A stretch of 64,000 nucleotides of DNA. Source: Aliarcobacter faecis. Its GTDB lineage: Bacteria; Campylobacterota; Campylobacteria; Campylobacterales; Arcobacteraceae. Positions 52,889-63,189 of this stretch are shown one piece after another (positions within the stretch are counted from its first letter, which is position 1; every line of letters begins with the position of its first letter). The notes under the pieces were generated by a model, which made no database searches, was not told where the DNA came from, and saw nothing but the letters and a program-made list of their open reading frames with translations. The position numbers were made by a program, and so were the translations under genes. The stretch covers positions 2,170,001 through 2,234,000 of the forward strand of contig NZ_CP053837.1 in NCBI RefSeq assembly GCF_013201705.1, in the 5' to 3' direction.

Positions 52889-52904
52889 TCATAACTTTCT
52901 CATA
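52889..52904 (+). promoter_or_regulatory. TCATA-N6-TCATA direct repeat upstream of lutA
   Basis: TCATA at 52889-52893 and again at 52900-52904 (11 bp period). A -10-like TATAAA follows at 52912-52917, so the pair covers the -35 position. The same arrangement occurs before lctP and dld. Confidence 0.55.
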
Positions 52905-52941
52905 TTTTAATTATAAAATTAGTTAAAAAAAGGAGAAAAGT

Positions 52942-53691
52942 ATGAAAATTGGACTATTTATTCCCTGTTTTATGAATGAACTATATCCGAATGTTTGTAA
53001 AGCAACATATAAATTACTAAAAAATCAAGATTTAGATATAGACTATCCATTAGAACAGACTTGCTGTGGACAAGCTATGGCAAACTCTGGTTGTTCAAAA
53101 GATATCAAAACTTTAGCAAAAAATTTTGTAAATACTTTTAAAGATTATGATTATATTGTTGCACCTAGTGCTTCATGTGTAACTATGGTAAAAGAGCATT
53201 ATGCAGAATTTTTTGATAATGACAAAGATTACAATAAAGTAAAAGCTTCAATTTATGAAATTTGCGAATTTTTACATGATGTAATAAAACTTGAAAATAT
53301 AAAATTTAAACACTCATTTGCATATAAAATTGGTCTTCACAACTCATGTCATGGACATAGAGTCCTAAAACTAGCAACTGCTAGTGAATTAAATATTCCA
53401 TATAACTCAAAATTAAAAAATCTTTTAAATAAAGTAGATGGTATTGAATTAGTAACTTTAAAAAGAGAAGATGAGTGTTGTGGTTTTGGTGGAACATTTA
53501 GTGTCCAAGAAGAGGCTATTTCAGTTGCAATGGGTAAAGATAGAGTAAAAGATCATCTTAATTCAAATGCACAAATAATAACTGGTGCTGATATGTCTTG
53601 TTTAATGCATATGGAAGGTATTATAAATAGAGATAAAACAGCAATCAAAGTTATGCATATAACAGAAATTCTTGCAGGAGTTAGACCATGA
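52942..53691 (+). CDS. lutA: Lactate utilisation protein LutA (CCG-domain oxidoreductase)
   Basis: 249 residues. It carries two CCG domains: LEQTCCGQAMANSGC (about 48-62) and a second DECCGFGGTFSV (about 180-191), as in LutA/LldE, and the HNSCHGHRV cysteine-histidine segment (about 134-142). With LutB and LutC it forms the non-flavin L-lactate oxidising complex in the cytosol or at the membrane face. AAAGGAG precedes the ATG, and lutB overlaps its stop as ATGA. Confidence 0.94.
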   Translation: MKIGLFIPCFMNELYPNVCKATYKLLKNQDLDIDYPLEQTCCGQAMANSGCSKDIKTLAKNFVNTFKDYDYIVAPSASCVTMVKEHYAEFFDNDKDYNKVKASIYEICEFLHDVIKLENIKFKHSFAYKIGLHNSCHGHRVLKLATASELNIPYNSKLKNLLNKVDGIELVTLKREDECCGFGGTFSVQEEAISVAMGKDRVKDHLNSNAQIITGADMSCLMHMEGIINRDKTAIKVMHITEILAGVRP

Positions 53692-55058
53692 GTAGCCATA
53701 GTATAAATGCTGCAAAATTTGTTTCAAATGATGAAAGAATGCATTGGCATGATGGGGCATTATGGTTTGTAAGAGAAAAAAGAGATAAAGCTAGTAAATC
53801 TATTCCTGAATGGGAAAATTTAAGAGAGTATGCAGACCAAATAAAAACTCATACTATGGCAAATTTAGATAAATATCTTTTAGAATTTGAAGAAAATGCA
53901 ACAAAAAAAGGTATTACTGTACATTTTGCTTTTGATGCACAAGAGCATAATGAAATTGTTTATAAAATCCTAAAAGAAAATAGTGTAAAAAAACTTGTAA
54001 AATCAAAATCTATGCTAACTGAAGAGTGCCACTTAAACCCTTATTTAGAAAACCGTGGAATTGAAGTAATAGATACCGATTTGGGAGAGAGAATTGTTCA
54101 ATTAAGAAATGAACCTCCTTCTCATATAGTTCTTCCTGCAATTCATCTAAAAAAATCCGATGTTTCTGATACATTTCATGAAAAATTAGGAACACAAAAA
54201 GGAAATTATGATCCAACTTATCTAACAAGGGCTGCAAGAGCTGCTTTAAGAGAAGATTTTTTAACTGCTGATGCAGGACTTACTGGAGTTAATTTTGCTA
54301 TTGCAAGTACTGGTGGAGTTGTAGTTTGTACAAATGAGGGAAATGCAGATATGGGAGCAAGTGTTCCAAAACTTCATATTGCTTCAATGGGAATAGAAAA
54401 AATAATTCCAAGACTTGAAGATTTAAGTGTATTTACAAGACTACTAGCACGAAGTGCCACAGGACAACCTATTACTTCATATACTTCACATTTTCATAAT
54501 AGTGTTGAAAATGGGCAAATGCATATAATCATTGTTGATAACAAAAGAAGTCAATTTTTAAGCTCAACAAAAAATAAAAAGGCTTTAAATTGTATTAGAT
54601 GTGGTGCTTGTATGAATACTTGCCCTGTTTATAGAAGAAGTGGTGGTCACTCTTATGAGTATGTAATACCAGGACCTATTGGCTCAATTTTAGGAAGTGT
54701 AAAAGAGCCAAAAGCAAATAATAGTTTACCTTTTGCTTGTACTTTATGTGGTTCTTGTTCAAATGTTTGCCCAGTAAAAATAGATTTAGATTCACAACTT
54801 TATAGCCTAAGACAAGATTTAGGAAAGATGAATTTAATAGATAGTAAAAAACAAACTGCTATGAAAGTAACTGCTTGGTTTATGAGTAAACCAGTTTTAT
54901 TTGATTTTCTTGGAAAAATGGCAAGAGTTATAGTGCCAAAACTTCCAAAATCTATACTTTATAATAGATTTAATGTTTGGGGAAAACAAAGAGATTTACC
55001 AAAGTTTCCTAAAAAAAGCTTCAAAGAGATGTTTAAAGATGGAGAATTAGATGACTAG
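53688..55058 (+). CDS. lutB: Lactate utilisation protein LutB (iron-sulfur)
   Basis: 456 residues. The N-terminal DUF162-type domain has VKSKSMLTEECHLN, ETDLGE-like DTDLGERIVQL and GLTGVNFAIASTGGVVVC. Two 4Fe-4S ferredoxin sites follow: CIRCGACMNTCP (about 304-315) and CTLCGSCSNVCP (about 354-365). It is slightly shorter at the C-terminus than some LutB proteins. It passes electrons within LutABC. Overlaps lutA by 4 nt and lutC by 8 nt. Confidence 0.95.
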   Translation: MSSHSINAAKFVSNDERMHWHDGALWFVREKRDKASKSIPEWENLREYADQIKTHTMANLDKYLLEFEENATKKGITVHFAFDAQEHNEIVYKILKENSVKKLVKSKSMLTEECHLNPYLENRGIEVIDTDLGERIVQLRNEPPSHIVLPAIHLKKSDVSDTFHEKLGTQKGNYDPTYLTRAARAALREDFLTADAGLTGVNFAIASTGGVVVCTNEGNADMGASVPKLHIASMGIEKIIPRLEDLSVFTRLLARSATGQPITSYTSHFHNSVENGQMHIIIVDNKRSQFLSSTKNKKALNCIRCGACMNTCPVYRRSGGHSYEYVIPGPIGSILGSVKEPKANNSLPFACTLCGSCSNVCPVKIDLDSQLYSLRQDLGKMNLIDSKKQTAMKVTAWFMSKPVLFDFLGKMARVIVPKLPKSILYNRFNVWGKQRDLPKFPKKSFKEMFKDGELDD

Positions 55059-55638
55059 TAAAGAAAAAATTTTAAATTCTATTAAAAAGAATAACTTAGT
55101 AAAAGATGTGAAACTTCCATCTTATGATAATTTTGGAATTAAATTTGAGAATAAATTTGAAACATTTTCTATAATGATTGAAAGTGTTGGTGGAAAAGCT
55201 TTAAGAGTTTCAAAAGAAGAGTTAAATAAAACAATAAAAGAGTTATATCCAGATGAAAAAATAGTTGCTTCAAATGTAGATTTTTGCTCTTTAGGTAATT
55301 TTGATGCAAACCGTTTTCAAAATGAAAAAGATTTAAAAGATATTGACTTAGCAATAGTTAAAGGAAATTTCGCAGTTGCTGAAAATGGTGCTGTTTGGGT
55401 AAAAAATGAGAATAATAGACATAGAGCTTTATATTTTATTGCACAAAATATAGTAATTGTCATAGATGAAGATGAAATAGTAAATAATATGCATGAAGCA
55501 TATGAAAAAATAAATTTTGAAAAAGCTGGTTATGGAGTATTTATCTCTGGTCCCTCAAAAACTGCAGATATAGAACAATCTTTAGTTATTGGTGCCCATG
55601 GTCCAAAATCTGGTTATGTAATTTTTATTAAATCCTAA
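55051..55638 (+). CDS. lutC: Lactate utilisation protein LutC
   Basis: 195 residues with the LUD (DUF162) domain: ATG starts within the lutB end, and the body has DLAIVKGNFAVAENGAVWV, ALYFIAQNIVIVIDEDEIV, FISGPSKTADIEQSLVIGAHGPKSGYV at the C-terminus. It completes the LutABC lactate oxidase. It is short relative to some LutC proteins (about 220-240) but ends with the conserved segment. Confidence 0.93.
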   Translation: MTSKEKILNSIKKNNLVKDVKLPSYDNFGIKFENKFETFSIMIESVGGKALRVSKEELNKTIKELYPDEKIVASNVDFCSLGNFDANRFQNEKDLKDIDLAIVKGNFAVAENGAVWVKNENNRHRALYFIAQNIVIVIDEDEIVNNMHEAYEKINFEKAGYGVFISGPSKTADIEQSLVIGAHGPKSGYVIFIKS

Positions 55639-55662
55639 TATAATTGCTAAATAGGAATAACA

Positions 55663-57855
55663 ATGAGATACTTTTTACTATTTAGCATACTTTTTATTGG
55701 CTTTGTAAATGCAAGTGAAAATAAAGAGGTATTATTAATACACTCATATCATAAAGGATATGCTTGGACTGATGATATCTCAAAAGCAATTGAAAAAAAC
55801 TTTTCAGAACATAAAAATATTGAGCTTACAACTGTTTATATGGATACAAAAAGAATAGATGATTTACACTATCTAGATAATCTTGCAAAACTTTATAAAG
55901 AACAATTCTCTAATAGAAAATTTGACTTAATAATAATTAGTGATAATAATGCTTTTGATTTTATATCAAAATATTATGACTATCTATTCAAAGATATCCC
56001 TGTCTTATTTTGTGGTATAAATGATTATACAAAAGAGAGTTTAAAAAAACTAAGCTTTAAAGATATTTCAGGAGTTGCCGAAGCTGTAGATATTGAAAAG
56101 AATTTTGAACTAATTTCAAAAATACATCCCAATTTAAAGAACATTTTAATTATAAATGATAAATCAATTACAGGATTAGCTGTAAAAAAAGATTTAACAA
56201 AAATTATTGAAAAATATAAAAAAAAGTTTAATATTGAATATACAGATAACCTTGAAATAAATGATTTAAAAGTAAAAGTATCAAATCTTGAAAAAGGTAA
56301 TAGTGCAATTTTATTTGTCTTACTATTTAAAGATACAACAGGAAAATATTTTACATATAAACAGAGTTTTGAAGAGATAAGAGAAGTTAGCCAAGTGCCA
56401 ATTTATGGTCTTTGGGATTTTTATTTAAATAGTGGAATGGTGGGAGGATTATTAACCTCAGCAGTTGCACAAGGTCAAACTGTATCTCAAATGGCTTTAG
56501 AAGTATTAAATGGAAAAGATATAAAAGATATTCCAGTTCTTGAAAAATCCCCAAATCTTTATATCTTTAACTATAATGAGTTAAAAAAGTTTGATATTAA
56601 TATTCCAAAATATATCGAAAATCCTATAATTATAAATGAACCTAGTTCAATATATAAAGAACATAAAAACTTTTTTATTATTACAATTATTACAATCTCT
56701 TTATTAAGTATTATTGTTATTATTCTAAAAATAAATATTCAAAGAAGGGAAAAACTTGAACTTGAGCTTTCAAATAGAATAGAGTTTGATAAAGTTCTTC
56801 TTGATACTATTCCAAATGCTATTTATCATAAAAATATTGAAGGTAAATTTTTAGGCTGTAATACTGCATTTGCTTCTTTGGTAAACTCTACAAAAAATGA
56901 GATTATAGGAAAAACTGCTTTTGATTTCTTTCCAGAGAAAATTGCTGTTCAAAATACTCATATAGACCAAGAAATATTAAGAACATTTACTACAAATAGT
57001 TCAGATTTTACTTTTTATACTCCTTCAAACGAAATGAAACATATAGTTTTAAATAAAGCTGCATATAAAAATATAGATGGCACTATTGGAGGAATTGTAT
57101 GTATAATGGATGATATGACAGAGAGAATTCAACAAAAACAGTTTTTAATTCAACAAAGTAAATTAGCTGAAATGGGAGATATGATAGCAGCAATTGCTCA
57201 TCAATGGAATGAACCTTTAGTAGAATTATCAGCACTTGTTCAGGATATTCAAACCTCATATTTATTAAATGAACTAAAAGATAATGATGTTGAAAATTTT
57301 GTTAAAGACTCTATGATTCAAATAAAATATATGTCTAAAACTCTAAATGATTTTAGAAATTTTCTAAAACCATCAACAAAAAAAGTTCTTTTTTCTATAT
57401 CAAAAGCATTAAATGAGATAAATGAGATTATAGGAAAACAGATTTTCTACTCAAATATAAATATGAACTTTAACTATAAAAATAAAGATGAAGAACTTCT
57501 TATTTATGGATATGAAAATGAGTTTAAACAAGTTTTATTAAATATTATAAATAATGCAAAAAATAAAATTATTGAAAAGAAACTACCTTTAAATAAAAAA
57601 GGGGAAATTAACATAAATATTCAAAGAGCTATAAATTATAATAAAATAGAGATTATTGATGATGCTGGAGCAATTGATGAAAAAATCATAAACTCTATTT
57701 TTGAGCCTTATTTTACAACAAAAGAAGATGGTATGGGACTTGGTCTTTATATGGCAAAAATAATTATAGAAGATAAGATGAAAGGAACTATAAATGTTAA
57801 AAATGATAAAAATTGTGTTGTTTTTACAATAAATCTTCCATTTAAAGAGGCTTAA
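55663..57855 (+). CDS. Sensor histidine kinase with periplasmic ABC-substrate-binding-like domain
   Basis: 730 residues. A signal sequence is followed by a periplasmic domain (about 20-330) of the ABC_sub_bind type: EVLLIHSYHKGYAWTDDISK, VPIYGLWDFYLNSGMVGGLLTS. One TM helix (about 337-358) leads to a PAS domain (about 370-485, YHKNIEGKFLGCNTAFASLV) and a kinase core with H-box AAIAHQWNEPL (His about 512), N-box QVLLNIINNAKNKI, D-box IIDDAGAID and G2 EDGMGLGLYMA. It lies 24 nt after lutC and before its regulator, inside a lactate cluster, so the ligand is plausibly lactate or a related acid; that is inference. Confidence 0.88.
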   Translation: MRYFLLFSILFIGFVNASENKEVLLIHSYHKGYAWTDDISKAIEKNFSEHKNIELTTVYMDTKRIDDLHYLDNLAKLYKEQFSNRKFDLIIISDNNAFDFISKYYDYLFKDIPVLFCGINDYTKESLKKLSFKDISGVAEAVDIEKNFELISKIHPNLKNILIINDKSITGLAVKKDLTKIIEKYKKKFNIEYTDNLEINDLKVKVSNLEKGNSAILFVLLFKDTTGKYFTYKQSFEEIREVSQVPIYGLWDFYLNSGMVGGLLTSAVAQGQTVSQMALEVLNGKDIKDIPVLEKSPNLYIFNYNELKKFDINIPKYIENPIIINEPSSIYKEHKNFFIITIITISLLSIIVIILKINIQRREKLELELSNRIEFDKVLLDTIPNAIYHKNIEGKFLGCNTAFASLVNSTKNEIIGKTAFDFFPEKIAVQNTHIDQEILRTFTTNSSDFTFYTPSNEMKHIVLNKAAYKNIDGTIGGIVCIMDDMTERIQQKQFLIQQSKLAEMGDMIAAIAHQWNEPLVELSALVQDIQTSYLLNELKDNDVENFVKDSMIQIKYMSKTLNDFRNFLKPSTKKVLFSISKALNEINEIIGKQIFYSNINMNFNYKNKDEELLIYGYENEFKQVLLNIINNAKNKIIEKKLPLNKKGEININIQRAINYNKIEIIDDAGAIDEKIINSIFEPYFTTKEDGMGLGLYMAKIIIEDKMKGTINVKNDKNCVVFTINLPFKEA

Positions 57856-57856
57856 A

Positions 57857-58501
57857 ATGAAAATTCTACTTTTAGAAGATAATCAAAAACTAAATGAAAC
57901 AATCACAAAAAGATTAAAAATGAAAAATTATAATGTGATATCTTTCATTGATGGAGCAGAAGCTTATGAAAAGATAACAGAAGGGTTTTCCTGTTTTATA
58001 TTAGATATTAATGTACCAAATATTGATGGTATTAATATCTTAAAAAAGATTAGAGAACTTTATGAAATTGTTCCAGTTATAATTATAAGTGCTAGTGTTG
58101 AACTTGATATGATAAAACAATCTTATGATTTTGGCTGTAATGATTATCTAAAAAAGCCTTTTTTTATAGATGAATTAGAGATAAAAATAGAAAAATTATG
58201 TAATATAAAAGATAAAAAAATATATTTTGATAAGAACTCATATTTTGATTTTATATCTTCAATAATAATTATAAATGATAAAGAGATAAGATTAACAAAA
58301 AAAGAGAAACTTTTACTAAATCTATTTCTTACTAAACAAAATCAAGTTATCACCTATGAAACCATAGAAAATTATGTTTGGGAAGGAAATTTTGTATCTT
58401 TAGACTCTATTAGAAGTCTAATTCTAAGATTAAGAAAAATTTTAGATAAAGATTTTATTCAAACAGTTATTGATACAGGTTATATTTTTAAAAATATTTA
58501 A
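57857..58501 (+). CDS. OmpR-family response regulator of the lactate cluster
   Basis: 214 residues. The receiver has ILLLEDNQKL, phospho-Asp in FILDINVPNIDG (Asp about 50), IIISASV and the Lys of YLKKPFFIDEL. The C-terminal winged helix has LTKKEKLLLNLFLTKQNQV, SLDSIRSLILRLRKIL and a truncated ending FIQTVIDTGYIFKNI. It starts 1 nt after the kinase stop. The lutA, lctP and dld promoters nearby share an 11 bp-spaced repeat which this protein could bind. Confidence 0.92.
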   Translation: MKILLLEDNQKLNETITKRLKMKNYNVISFIDGAEAYEKITEGFSCFILDINVPNIDGINILKKIRELYEIVPVIIISASVELDMIKQSYDFGCNDYLKKPFFIDELEIKIEKLCNIKDKKIYFDKNSYFDFISSIIIINDKEIRLTKKEKLLLNLFLTKQNQVITYETIENYVWEGNFVSLDSIRSLILRLRKILDKDFIQTVIDTGYIFKNI

Positions 58502-58527
58502 TCTCTTTTTTTAGTTTATTACTAAAA

Positions 58528-58543
58528 TCATATAAATTTCATA
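58528..58543 (+). promoter_or_regulatory. TCATA-N6-TCATA direct repeat upstream of lctP
   Basis: TCATA at 58528-58532 and 58539-58543 (11 bp period). A -10-like TAATAT follows at 58553-58558, so the pair covers the expected -35. Downstream is a strong AAGGAGG ribosome site at 58577-58583. Confidence 0.55.
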
Positions 58544-58588
58544 CCTTTTTATTAATATCCATTTAATATTTTACTTAAGGAGGTTTAT

Positions 58589-60229
58589 ATGCAAACTTGG
58601 CAACAAGTATATGCACCAATAGGGGATAGTCTAATTCTATCAGCTCTTGTAGCACTAATTCCTATTGTTTTTTTCTTTTTGGCACTTGCACTATTTAGAA
58701 TGAAAGGGCACTACGCAGCAATCATTACATTAGCATTATCGATGATTGTAGCAGTTTTTGGATTTGAGATGCCAGTTAATATGGTATTTTCATCAGCTAG
58801 TTATGGTTTCTTATTTGGTTTATGGCCAATTGCTTGGATTATTGTTGCATCAGTATTTTTATACAAATTAACAGTAAAAAGTGGGCAATTTGAGATTATT
58901 AGAAACTCTATTATAAAAATCACTGAAGATCAGAGAATTCAAGTTATTTTAATTGGTTTTTCATTTGGTGCTTTTTTAGAAGGGGCTGCTGGATTTGGAG
59001 CACCTGTTGCTATTACAGCTGCAATTTTAGTAGGTCTTGGATTTAAACCTCTATATGCAGCTGGATTATGTCTTATTGCAAATACTGCTCCTGTTGCCTT
59101 TGGAGCTTTAGGTGTTCCAATTATTGTTGCTGGACAAGTAACTTCAATCGATGCTTTTACAATTGGAGCAATGGCTGGAAGACAATTACCAATACTATCT
59201 TTAATTATCCCTTTATGGCTTGTTGCTATGATGGATGGTTGGAAAGGTATTAAAGAGGTATGGCCTGCTGCAATAGTTGCAGGGGCAAGTTTTGCTATTT
59301 CTCAATATCTTACATCAAATTTTATTGGTCCAGAATTACCAGATGTTACTTCAGCAATAGTTTCTATTGTTGCAACAACAATCTTCTTAAGATATTGGAA
59401 ACCAAAAAATATTATGAAAACAGTAGAGTTAGATGAGGTTGTTTCATCATCATATTCAACTGCTCAAGTATTTAAAGCTTGGTCTCCATTTATTATTCTT
59501 TCAATAATGGTTACAATTTGGACAACAGGTTGGTTTAAAGCTTTTTTTGCAAAAGGTCAAATTTTAGCGAATACTATTTTCAAATTTGAATTTTCAACTA
59601 TTCACAATATGATATTCAAAATGCCACCAATAGTTAGTACACCAAAGTCTTTTGATGTTGTATATACATTTAATCCTATTTCAGCAACAGGTACTGCTAT
59701 TTTTCTAACAGCAATTATTACTATGTTTATATTTAGATTAAATATATCAACAACTACAAAAACAATGGGTGAAACTCTTTTTGAACTTAAATGGGCTATT
59801 GTATCAATTGGTATGGTTCTTGGATTTGCATTTGTTATGAACTATTCAGGTATGTCTTCAACAATGGCTCTAGTATTAGCAAATACTGGTTTCTTATTTC
59901 CATTTTTCTCTCCATTTTTAGGATGGCTTGGAGTATTTTTAACTGGTTCAGATACTTCATCAAATGCACTTTTCTGCGGATTACAACAACAAACTGCTCA
60001 ACAATTAGGACTGAATGAAACACTAATGGTTGCAGCAAATACAACAGGTGGAGTTTGTGGAAAAATGATTTCACCTCAATCTATTTCTATTGCTTGTGCC
60101 TCAACAGGAATTGTTGGGAAAGAGTCTGATTTATTTAGATTTACAGTTAAACATAGTTTAATACTTGTTGTTATTATGGGACTTATAACTATGTCTCAAG
60201 CATATATTTTTACTTGGATGATTCCATAA
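58589..60229 (+). CDS. lctP: L-lactate permease
   Basis: 546 residues with about 13 hydrophobic segments. It matches the LctP/LldP family: GAFLEGAAGFGAPVAITAAIL (about 130-150, the signature), ANTAPVAFGALGVPIIVAGQ, GSDTSSNALFCGLQQQTA and TTGGVCGKMISPQSISIACA near the C-terminus. It carries lactate with protons. The start has a very strong Shine-Dalgarno AAGGAGG and its own regulated-looking promoter after the response regulator gene. It ends at a strong terminator. Confidence 0.95.
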   Translation: MQTWQQVYAPIGDSLILSALVALIPIVFFFLALALFRMKGHYAAIITLALSMIVAVFGFEMPVNMVFSSASYGFLFGLWPIAWIIVASVFLYKLTVKSGQFEIIRNSIIKITEDQRIQVILIGFSFGAFLEGAAGFGAPVAITAAILVGLGFKPLYAAGLCLIANTAPVAFGALGVPIIVAGQVTSIDAFTIGAMAGRQLPILSLIIPLWLVAMMDGWKGIKEVWPAAIVAGASFAISQYLTSNFIGPELPDVTSAIVSIVATTIFLRYWKPKNIMKTVELDEVVSSSYSTAQVFKAWSPFIILSIMVTIWTTGWFKAFFAKGQILANTIFKFEFSTIHNMIFKMPPIVSTPKSFDVVYTFNPISATGTAIFLTAIITMFIFRLNISTTTKTMGETLFELKWAIVSIGMVLGFAFVMNYSGMSSTMALVLANTGFLFPFFSPFLGWLGVFLTGSDTSSNALFCGLQQQTAQQLGLNETLMVAANTTGGVCGKMISPQSISIACASTGIVGKESDLFRFTVKHSLILVVIMGLITMSQAYIFTWMIP

Positions 60230-60237
60230 CTATATCT

Positions 60238-60270
60238 AATTTTATTTAGGCATTTTGCCTAAATAAAATT
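60238..60270 (+). terminator. Terminator after lctP
   Basis: A perfect 15 bp stem AATTTTATTTAGGCA / TGCCTAAATAAAATT with a TTT loop begins 9 nt after the stop. Confidence 0.8.
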
Positions 60271-60285
60271 ACTCCTTTATAAATA

Positions 60286-60301
60286 TCATATTATTATCAT
60301 T
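60286..60301 (+). promoter_or_regulatory. TCATA-N6-TCATT direct repeat upstream of dld
   Basis: TCATA at 60286-60290 and TCATT at 60297-60301 (11 bp period). A -10-like TAAAAT follows at 60311-60316. It is the third copy of the arrangement found before lutA and lctP. Confidence 0.5.
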
Positions 60302-60348
60302 TAGTAAAGTTAAAATTTATATCTTAATAAATCTTAAGGGAATTAAAT

Positions 60349-63189
60349 ATGTTAGAAAGTAAATATCAACAATTTTTTGATGAAATATCAAAAAAAATCT
60401 CAATAAACAAAATTTTCACAGATAAACTTCACACTTTTGCTTACGGAACAGATGCCTCTTTTTATAGACTTATTCCAAAAATAGTAATAAAAACAGATAA
60501 TGCAAAAGAGGTTCAAAATATTATAGAGTTAGCAAATATTATGAATTTATCTATTACATTTAGAGCAGGTGGTACCTCTCTTTCAGGACAAGCAATTAGT
60601 GATTCTATTTTAGTTATAACTTCAAGAAACTTTTCAAAATTTAAAATCTCTTCAGACGCTAGTTATATTTCTCTTCAACCAGCACTTACTGGTGCTCAAG
60701 CAAATGGACTATTAGCACGATATTCTAAAAAAATAGGTCCAGACCCAGCTAGTATAAATGCAGCTATGATTGGGGGAATTGCTGCAAACAATGCTTCAGG
60801 AATGTGTTGTGGAATTTCTCAAAACTCATATAAAACTCTAAAATCTATGAAACTAATCTTTGTAGATGGAACAAAGCTTGATACTGCTGATGAAAATAGT
60901 AAAAATGAATTTAGAAAAACTCATGCCAACTTCCTAAAAGATTTAAAGAACTTTTCTAATCAAACAAAAAACAATGAAGAGTTAAGAGCAAAAATTGAGA
61001 AAAAGTTTAAAATAAAGAATACTTGTGGTTACTCAATAAATTCTTTAATAGATTTTGATGATGAGTTTGAGATACTTCAACACCTAATTATTGGAAGTGA
61101 AGGAACTTTAGCTTTTATCGAAGAGATTACTTACTATACAGTCGAAGATTTAAAAGATAAAGCTAGTGCTTTAATCTATTTTAAAGATATGAAAGAGGCC
61201 TGTAACGCTGTAACAAAACTAAAATTATCAAGAGATTCTAAACAAATTGTTGTTGATGCAGTTGAACTTATGGATAGAGCAGCTTTAAGAAGTATTGAAA
61301 ATGATTCATCAATGCCAAAATTTATAAAAGATTTAAATGATGAGGTAACAGCACTTTTAATAGAGACAAGGGCTATAAATAATGAACAATTAGATACTCA
61401 AATATCTCAAATAGAAAGAATTTTAGAAGATTTTAATGTAGTAAGAGAGATATATTTTACGAAAGATGCTCAAGAATATAATCTTTATTGGAAAATTAGA
61501 AAAGATCTTTTTCCAGCAGTTGGAGCAGTAAGAGTTATAGGAACAACAGTAATTATAGAAGATGTAGCTTATCCAATTGAAGTACTAGCAGAAGCTACTC
61601 TTGAACTTCAAGCTCTATTTCAAAAATATGGTTACTCTGAAGCAATCATTTTTGGTCATGCTTTAGAAGGAAATTTCCACTTTGTATTTACTCAAGATTT
61701 TTCAGATGCAAAAGAGGTAAAAAGATATGATAATTTAATGAATGAAGTAGTTAATTCAGTTGCTATTAAATATCAAGGAAGTTTAAAAGCTGAACATGGA
61801 ACAGGAAGAAATATGGCTGCATTTGTTGAAATAGAGTGGGGAAATGAAGCTTATAATATAATGAAAAAAATAAAAAATCTATTTGACCCAAAAGGTTTAT
61901 TAAATCCTGGAGTTATAATAAATGATGATAAAGAAGCTCATTTGAAAAACCTAAAAACTCTTCCAGCTACTAATGAGATTGTTGATAAATGTATAGAGTG
62001 TGGTTTTTGTGAACCTACTTGTCCATCAAATGAACTTACATTAACTCCAAGACAAAGAATTGTAATAAATAGAGAGATTTCAAGACTTGAAAATATGGGA
62101 AATACAAAAGAGGCAAAAGAGTATAAAGCTTTATACCAATATGATGGAATAGAAACTTGTGCAACATGTAGTTTATGTTCAACTGCCTGTCCTGTAAAAA
62201 TAGATACAGGAAATTTAACAAAACATTTAAGAGCTGAACAATTAACTTCAAAAGATAAGAGTATTGCAAATTTTGTAGCAAATAATTTTAGTACAACATT
62301 AAAAGGTGTCAGATTTGGACTAAAAAGTGCAAATCTTATGCATAAAGTTTTAGGCACTTCTAACATGCAAAAATTTACTAAAACTTTGAGAACTATAAGT
62401 AAAAACAAAGTTCCAAAATGGTCAATAACTATGCCAAAAGCTATAAGTATAAACTTAAACTTTGAACAAAAACAAAGAGATAAAAAAGTAGTTTATTTCC
62501 CATCTTGCTTAAATAGAACTATGGGATTAAACTCTATATCAAAAGAAGATAAGGAGCTTTTTGATGTTACAGTTGAATTATTACAAAAAGCCAATTATCA
62601 AATAATTTTCCCAAATAATTTATCAAATCTTTGTTGTGGTATGCCATTTAGTTCAAAAGGGTTTAATGAAGCATCTAGTACAAAATCCTTGCAACTAGAA
62701 GAGTCTCTTTTAAATGCAAGTGAATTTGGAGAGTATCCAATTTTATGTGATACAAGTCCCTGTACTAAAAAAATGATAGAGAGTTTTTCACATAAATTAT
62801 CAATTTATGAACCAATAGATTTTACTTTGGAGTTTTTAACAAAAGAGTTAGATTTTACTCCTATTGATGAACCAATAACTATTCATACAACTTGTAGTTC
62901 AAGAAAAATGAACTTAGAAGATAAATTCAAAACATTAGCACAATTATGTTCAACAACTGTAATTATCCCATCAGATGTTAAATGTTGTGGATTTGCAGGA
63001 GATAGAGGGTTCAATTTTCCAGAATTAAATAGTTCAGCTTTAAGATATTTAAAAGAGCAAACAGCTAATGCTAAAATGGCATTTTCTACAAGTAAAACTT
63101 GTGAAATAGGATTAAGTGAAAGTTCTGGACTTGATTATAACTCTATTTTTTATCTAGTAAATCAAGTTACAAAAGTTAAAAGTTCATAA
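60349..63189 (+). CDS. dld: FAD- and Fe-S-binding D-lactate dehydrogenase (Dld-type)
   Basis: 946 residues. An FAD-binding PCMH domain (about 25-260: KIVIKTDNAKEVQNIIELAN, FRAGGTSLSGQAISDSILV, GPDPASINAAMIGGIAANNASGM) and FAD-oxidase C-domain (about 275-540: IIFGHALEGNFHFVF, KAEHGTGRNMAAFVE) are followed by two 4Fe-4S sites, CIECGFCEPTCP (about 548) and CATCSLCSTACP (about 604), and two CCG domains (NLCCGMPFSS about 760, KCCGFAGDRG about 878). This fused D-2-hydroxyacid dehydrogenase architecture fits D-lactate oxidation beside L-lactate LutABC and LctP. TAAGGGAAT precedes ATG. Confidence 0.93.
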   Translation: MLESKYQQFFDEISKKISINKIFTDKLHTFAYGTDASFYRLIPKIVIKTDNAKEVQNIIELANIMNLSITFRAGGTSLSGQAISDSILVITSRNFSKFKISSDASYISLQPALTGAQANGLLARYSKKIGPDPASINAAMIGGIAANNASGMCCGISQNSYKTLKSMKLIFVDGTKLDTADENSKNEFRKTHANFLKDLKNFSNQTKNNEELRAKIEKKFKIKNTCGYSINSLIDFDDEFEILQHLIIGSEGTLAFIEEITYYTVEDLKDKASALIYFKDMKEACNAVTKLKLSRDSKQIVVDAVELMDRAALRSIENDSSMPKFIKDLNDEVTALLIETRAINNEQLDTQISQIERILEDFNVVREIYFTKDAQEYNLYWKIRKDLFPAVGAVRVIGTTVIIEDVAYPIEVLAEATLELQALFQKYGYSEAIIFGHALEGNFHFVFTQDFSDAKEVKRYDNLMNEVVNSVAIKYQGSLKAEHGTGRNMAAFVEIEWGNEAYNIMKKIKNLFDPKGLLNPGVIINDDKEAHLKNLKTLPATNEIVDKCIECGFCEPTCPSNELTLTPRQRIVINREISRLENMGNTKEAKEYKALYQYDGIETCATCSLCSTACPVKIDTGNLTKHLRAEQLTSKDKSIANFVANNFSTTLKGVRFGLKSANLMHKVLGTSNMQKFTKTLRTISKNKVPKWSITMPKAISINLNFEQKQRDKKVVYFPSCLNRTMGLNSISKEDKELFDVTVELLQKANYQIIFPNNLSNLCCGMPFSSKGFNEASSTKSLQLEESLLNASEFGEYPILCDTSPCTKKMIESFSHKLSIYEPIDFTLEFLTKELDFTPIDEPITIHTTCSSRKMNLEDKFKTLAQLCSTTVIIPSDVKCCGFAGDRGFNFPELNSSALRYLKEQTANAKMAFSTSKTCEIGLSESSGLDYNSIFYLVNQVTKVKSS

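Follow-up and report, generated by a model that had tools for sequence, protein, structure and literature searches.

In a 64,000-nucleotide stretch of Aliarcobacter faecis DNA (hereafter, the window), the lactate-use genes lutA, lctP, and dld are each preceded by the same pair of short direct repeats, and a sensor kinase and a response regulator are encoded in the same cluster. This arrangement raises the question of whether the repeats are the operators of that two-component system. The preliminary description of the window proposed that they are bound by the regulator encoded at 57857-58501 and that they define a lactate regulon of three transcription units. We consider it highly likely that the three repeats serve as operators for the two-component system located between lutC and lctP, which would activate the three lactate units. 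The assignment to this regulator is favored by the position of the repeats, their conserved spacing, their co-occurrence with the regulator, and their movement with the target genes.

Gene cluster and repeats in the window

Domains were called on the window proteins using Pfam and NCBIfam. The relevant features are as follows.

52889..52904, + strand: predicted operator of the lutA promoter, TCATA-N6-TCATA
52914..52919, + strand: -10 hexamer of lutA, TAAAAT, beginning 9 bp past the operator
52942..53691, + strand: lutA, CCG domain protein (PF02754)
53688..55058, + strand: lutB, with LUD_dom and LutB_C (TIGR00273 just below cut-off)
55051..55638, + strand: lutC, with LUD_dom
55663..57855, + strand: sensor kinase, with ABC_sub_bind-type sensor (PF04392), PAS, and histidine kinase domains (H-box H513)
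57857..58501, + strand: OmpR/PhoB-type response regulator (Response_reg and Trans_reg_C), the proposed binder of the three operators
58528..58543, + strand: predicted operator of the lctP promoter, TCATA-N6-TCATA
58553..58558, + strand: -10 hexamer of lctP, TAATAT, 9 bp past the second pentamer
58589..60229, + strand: lctP, L-lactate permease (PF02652; TIGR00795 above cut-off)
60286..60301, + strand: predicted operator of the dld promoter, TCATA-N6-TCATT
60311..60316, + strand: -10 hexamer of dld, TAAAAT, 9 bp past the second pentamer
60349..63189, + strand: dld-like FAD/Fe-S dehydrogenase (FAD_binding_4, FAD-oxidase_C, Fer4, CCG)

Among the 25 matches listed, there is no NCBIfam equivalog above its cut-off for the dld-like protein, and therefore the substrate of this protein is judged from context. 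The gaps between lutC and the kinase gene (24 bp) and between the kinase and regulator genes (1 bp) are short, so these two genes are probably transcribed together with lutABC. The regulator gene is separated from lctP by 87 bp, and lctP from dld by 119 bp.

A pattern scan of the window yielded exact matches to TCATW-N6-TCATW on the + strand at all three positions, confirming the two TCAT(A/T) pentamers 11 bp apart that had been described before lutA, lctP, and dld. The -10-like hexamer reported behind each pair is likewise present, but its spacing, given previously as 7-9 bp, is 9 bp at all three promoters. This distance recurs among the exact sites in the family Arcobacteraceae, where the best-scoring -10-like hexamer lies 9 bp after the second pentamer at 54 of 57 lutA sites, at all 41 sites before the TRAP gene dctP, at 10/10 dld sites after lctP, and at 2/2 dld sites directly after the regulator. 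Among the exact lctP sites, this is so for only 6 of 12, and another offset scored higher at the others.

The number of matches is not informative. The window contains a fourth exact match (61726-61741, - strand) that lies within the dld coding sequence and is taken as chance. Its four matches compare with a mean of 2.69 in shuffled sequences, 28 of 100 of which contain at least four, and the count is thus unremarkable. The bare motif is also not enriched in the whole 2.45-Mb genome (67 matches vs 62 for a reversed control pattern). The specificity of the motif is in its position, its spacing, and the -10 element rather than in the number of matches. Because the bare motif occurs at chance level, the case for the repeats rests on placement and conservation.

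Conservation of the repeats and co-occurrence with the regulator

A first scan covered 32 named loci with relatives of the regulator, from Arcobacter-type and other Campylobacterales records, and many of these have a TCAT pair at the equivalent place. The family set comprises 104 Arcobacteraceae genomes, of which 82 encode regulator-like proteins (E ≤ 1e-40, paralogues included), 69 carry lutA, and 15 encode LctP (12 close and 3 distant). The regions compared were the 69 lutA clusters, 4 regulator regions that are on other contigs or lack lutA, and 7 others that are mostly loci of a paralogous system.

The exact TCATW-N6-TCATW pattern is present before lutA in 57 of the 69 genomes and, in 55 of 62 cases, before the first known target gene that follows the regulator. 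When grouped by the identity of this first gene, exact sites precede lctP in 12/12 genomes, dctP in 41/46, dld in 2/3, and a BCCT transporter gene in 0/1. On the coding strand, TCAT-N7-TCAT occurs in 57 of the 69 lutA and 59 of the 62 post-regulator upstream regions, compared to at most 18 for any other spacing from 0 to 30. The sequence beyond these target regions, 1,942,684 strand-bases in all, contains 90 matches. The motif is therefore not equally dense in unrelated DNA, a concern that had been raised in the preliminary description.

Sites were also scored with a 40-bp weight matrix trained on exact matches only, leaving the tested genus out of the training each time. A region passed if it scored above all 400 letter shuffles, which preserve base composition and not dinucleotide composition. 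By this measure, sites are found before lutA in 68/69 genomes, before lctP in 12/12, and before dctP, the TRAP gene that occupies the position of lctP in other genomes, in 46/46. For dld, the counts are 10/12 after lctP, 2/3 directly after the regulator, 1/1 in the genome with the BCCT transporter, and only 2/43 where dld follows dctP of the TRAP genes. The BCCT transporter gene itself scored 0/1. In that genome (G064; loci L019 and L122), the BCCT-type gene is inserted directly after the regulator without a site, and the TRAP dctP gene behind it has one.

The sole lutA region to fail the matrix test (genome G069) lacks both the kinase and the regulator over its 14.3 kb, and no regulator match at E ≤ 1e-40 was found in this genome. 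It is the single negative case for the link between site and regulator. In another genome (G088), the contig breaks off behind the kinase gene, and the regulator was not seen beside lutA. A profile built from 56 aligned sites (R1) has matches at E ≤ 1e-3 in 68 of the 104 family genomes, which are 67 lutA genomes and one genome (G041) with the kinase, the regulator, and TRAP genes. The lutA genomes missed at this threshold are G069 and G016. Strict R1 filters thus lose some sites, because the lutA site of G016 passes the matrix test. Another 11 family genomes have R1 matches only between E 0.003 and 0.01.

Among 298 Campylobacterales genomes, R1 (E ≤ 1e-3) was found in 19 and the regulator (E ≤ 1e-90) in 19, and these are the identical 19 genomes. 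The lutA gene (E ≤ 1e-60) is present in 65 of the 298, and 46 of these have neither an R1 match nor the regulator at E ≤ 1e-90. A more distant homologue of the regulator (E 1e-81 to 1e-67) is carried by 20 of these 46. Divergent sites would escape R1, since the profile was trained on Arcobacteraceae. The preliminary description named loss of the repeats with retention of the regulator as a refuting outcome. Instead, the repeats are kept where the orthologous regulator is kept, neither was found in G069, and the same 19 of 298 genomes in the order have both.

The site rule is firm in the Arcobacteraceae and only partial outside the family, because the site was found at 1 of 20 lutA loci and at 4 of 8 loci of regulator homologues there. 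The lutA loci inspected were 20 of the 45 from outside the family, with the exact motif near lutA in G221, and 8 of the 9 inspected loci from family f20 retain one TATCATA half (by eye). The distant regulator homologue, as inspected at eight loci, is usually part of a kinase-regulator-TRAP-dld cluster. Two of these loci (L255 and L258) have the exact site before a TRAP gene or immediately behind the regulator, and two have it before a lactate permease gene (L257, PF02652 checked; L261, named from its translation). No exact site was found at any target gene in L253, L256, L259, and L260.

Sites at rearranged and exchanged transporter genes

Gene order behind the regulator varies within the family. 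In two genomes (G002 and G006), dld directly follows the regulator gene, and the site is located before dld. In six others (G001, G018, G021, G035, G091, and G095), a convergent second kinase-regulator pair comes after the regulator, and the TRAP operon is elsewhere. The displaced dctP gene retains the site in 6/6 genomes. In the genome G010, the regulator and dctP are separated by a paralogous regulator gene (G010:C1:94253-94768) that contains one stop codon and has probably decayed. By these comparisons, the site stays with the lactate genes across the family, even where one type of lactate importer has been exchanged for an unrelated one.

Two genomes, G022 and G023 (L091 and L092), carry about 150 bp between lctP and dld that match the dld leader of the TRAP-type locus L006 at 92-93% identity, and their dld genes lie behind lctP without a site. 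This stretch would be the remnant expected after loss of a TRAP operon, as if lctP had replaced that operon. The window-type dld promoter is similar to that of dctP in TRAP genomes (TATCATATTATTATCATT..GT..AGTTAAAATTT, by eye), and the surroundings of the lctP promoter, also compared by eye, differ from those of the dld and dctP promoters. We infer that loss of the TRAP genes may have left dld behind the former dctP promoter, whereupon dld would have acquired its site, and that the incoming lctP had an operator of its own.

The closest PDB entries to a Poseidonibacter DctP protein (L015) are 4pet (E 5e-146) and 5cm6 (E 4e-141), both of which we take to have been solved with pyruvate. Papers on these solved relatives of the TRAP protein were not found in the literature searched. 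The same protein is more distantly related to the lactate-binding TTHA0766 chains (7e9y, E 1e-27). These relationships fit a role for the TRAP DctP protein in lactate or pyruvate uptake, and such a role would explain the swap for LctP.

Regulator, alternative explanations, and wider regulon

The 56 aligned sites are invariant for ATCAT in the first half and TCAT in the second (consensus AAAAATATCATAT.TTT.TCATAT), and the operator consists of two TNTCATW heptads in direct orientation, with a period of 11 bp. The regulator combines a receiver (PF00072) and a winged-helix Trans_reg_C domain (PF00486), as in the OmpR/PhoB-type class. Residues E7, D8, S78, and K99 are invariant among 67 orthologues, and the window protein has the phosphoacceptor D50 as well as S78. 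The window kinase has H-, N-, and G-boxes and a sensor part that resembles TrpX-type binding proteins. Each position of the recognition-helix segment SIRSL.RR.RK is conserved in at least 90% of the 67 orthologues, and in the window regulator (SIRSLILRLRK), an L replaces the first R of the family consensus. The helix is similar in homologues outside the family and in paralogues, in line with a shared TCAT core.

Based on these findings, the cluster regulator (57857-58501) very probably binds the three repeats. In the mechanism we propose, the kinase would sense lactate, directly or indirectly, through its periplasmic solute-binding-type sensor domain and would phosphorylate the regulator at D50. 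A dimer of the regulator would bind the heptads head to tail in a PhoB-like manner. With the operator over the -35 region and the -10 beginning 9 bp past its second half, the regulator would activate from the -35 position. The targets would be lutABC-kinase-regulator (forming a feedback loop), lctP, and dld, and it is these genes that point to lactate as the signal.

The sites could instead be operators of another OmpR-type regulator, such as CemR (Cj1608/Abu0127) or a phosphate regulator, which we regard as very unlikely. CemR is also of OmpR type, and in the available text on this protein, Cj1608 interacts in vitro with the Campylobacter jejuni lctP promoter and lctP/lut are lowered in the mutant (PMC11334517). 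However, CemR is described as an atypical regulator whose regulon covers energy metabolism broadly. Its receiver is atypical and has no dedicated kinase, whereas the window regulator has canonical residues and a kinase gene 1 bp upstream. The geometry of the repeats is that of the Pho box, which in the available text consists of two direct repeats of 11 bp recognized by the OmpR-type regulator PhoB (PMC3978041). PhoB, however, serves phosphate genes, whereas the window system is linked to genes for lactate use, and the window regulator scores 91.7 bits against TIGR02154 (PhoB), below the cut-off of 296.2. TCAT also occurs in the Pho box repeat. The Pho-regulon reading was rejected because the 3.9-kb pstS locus of the source genome, where the pstS match itself is below the family cut-off, showed no TCA-N8-TCA on the strand encoding pstS. 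Furthermore, the R1 profile is confined to genomes with the cluster regulator, which argues against any other OmpR-type protein.

Alternatively, the cluster regulator may bind these sites and act as a repressor, with its signal relieving repression. A site over the -35 can also block polymerase, and the direction of control is unreadable from sequence alone. However, Pho-box-like geometry with a fixed distance to the -10 is usual for activators of the PhoB type, and therefore repression seems unlikely and activation probable. One might also propose that the repeats are ordinary A+T-rich core promoter elements or chance occurrences, given that the bare motif is not enriched in the genome and that four matches in the window are unremarkable. 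Yet both letters and spacing are conserved at matched promoters across genera, the site is absent before dld behind TRAP genes (2 of 43 have it), and it is confined to regulator-bearing genomes. This last explanation is exceedingly improbable, and as far as sequence can decide the matter, it is already refuted.

Among known systems, the closest in function to the predicted lactate system is LurSR of Desulfovibrio. In the available text, this two-component system is encoded beside lactate genes and activates an operon for lactate oxidation as well as a lactate permease, with regulator and sites conserved together, as here (PMC6456213). LurS, however, is described as a large hybrid kinase, and LurR as depending on sigma54 and having a 16-bp motif located far upstream, in contrast to the OmpR-type regulator, the direct repeats over the -35, and the solute-binding-type sensor of the window system. 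Only the receiver and Trans_reg_C were found by Pfam in the window regulator, which is therefore not of the LurR-like sigma54-dependent type. LldR and LutR are GntR-type regulators of lactate use that control lld/lut and permease genes. These are one-component proteins, unlike the two-component system with direct repeats in the window.

The predicted regulon in the source genome consists of lutABC-kinase-regulator, lctP, and dld, and the conserved sites before lutA, lctP, and dld bear out, at the level of such comparisons, the three transcription units originally proposed. In the R1 search of this genome, lutA and dld rank first and second (E = 4e-6), and the lctP site is weak, being the seventh-best match (E = 0.088).

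The next match after lutA and dld (C1:1628335, E 0.002) is confined to model positions 9-40, and the 350 bp after it contain the start of no ORF of at least 60 aa. We therefore do not claim a fourth regulon unit. Below this match, there are 62 more up to E 10, with lctP among them.

In eight relatives (G004, G020, G021, G022, G023, G025, G033, and G075), an AEC-type permease gene has a site approximately 116-130 bp upstream (L213-L218, L224, and L227), and the G004 protein was confirmed as PF03547. This permease was not found in the source genome, where there is only a 25%-identical relative. Two single profile matches may be due to chance. One (L219, G060) precedes a gene for a pyruvate dehydrogenase E1-like protein and the other (L225, G075) a gene for a fumarate reductase cytochrome b-like protein, both genes being named from their translations.

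A paralogous kinase-regulator pair, whose kinase lacks the solute-binding sensor, adjoins CoA-transferase and thiolase genes. It is convergent to the regulator at L003, L009, L030, L262, L263, and L264 and was also seen at L028, L029, and L031. Upstream of the CoA-transferase gene, TCAT-N7-TCAT is present in 7 of 12 distinct regions. Five of these seven have the conserved proximal form TCATTATTTA(C/T)TCATA, and two more have it with one changed letter. The paralogue may use this motif as a related operator. Cross-binding between the regulator and this CoA-transferase-linked paralogue is possible, because the recognition helices of the two are alike and their sites partly so.

We found no paper on this system or its motif in the literature searched, which most subscription papers fall outside. 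A broader picture, which we put forward tentatively and at somewhat less than even weight, is that an OmpR-type lactate two-component system is old in the Arcobacteraceae and related Campylobacterales. Its kinase would read periplasmic lactate (or pyruvate) by means of the TrpX-like domain, its operator would have outlived the exchange of TRAP and LctP transporters, and a duplicated system with a related operator would control CoA-transferase and thiolase (acetoacetate-type) genes. The system also provides a natural case in which an operator persists while the transporter under it is replaced by a non-homologous one.
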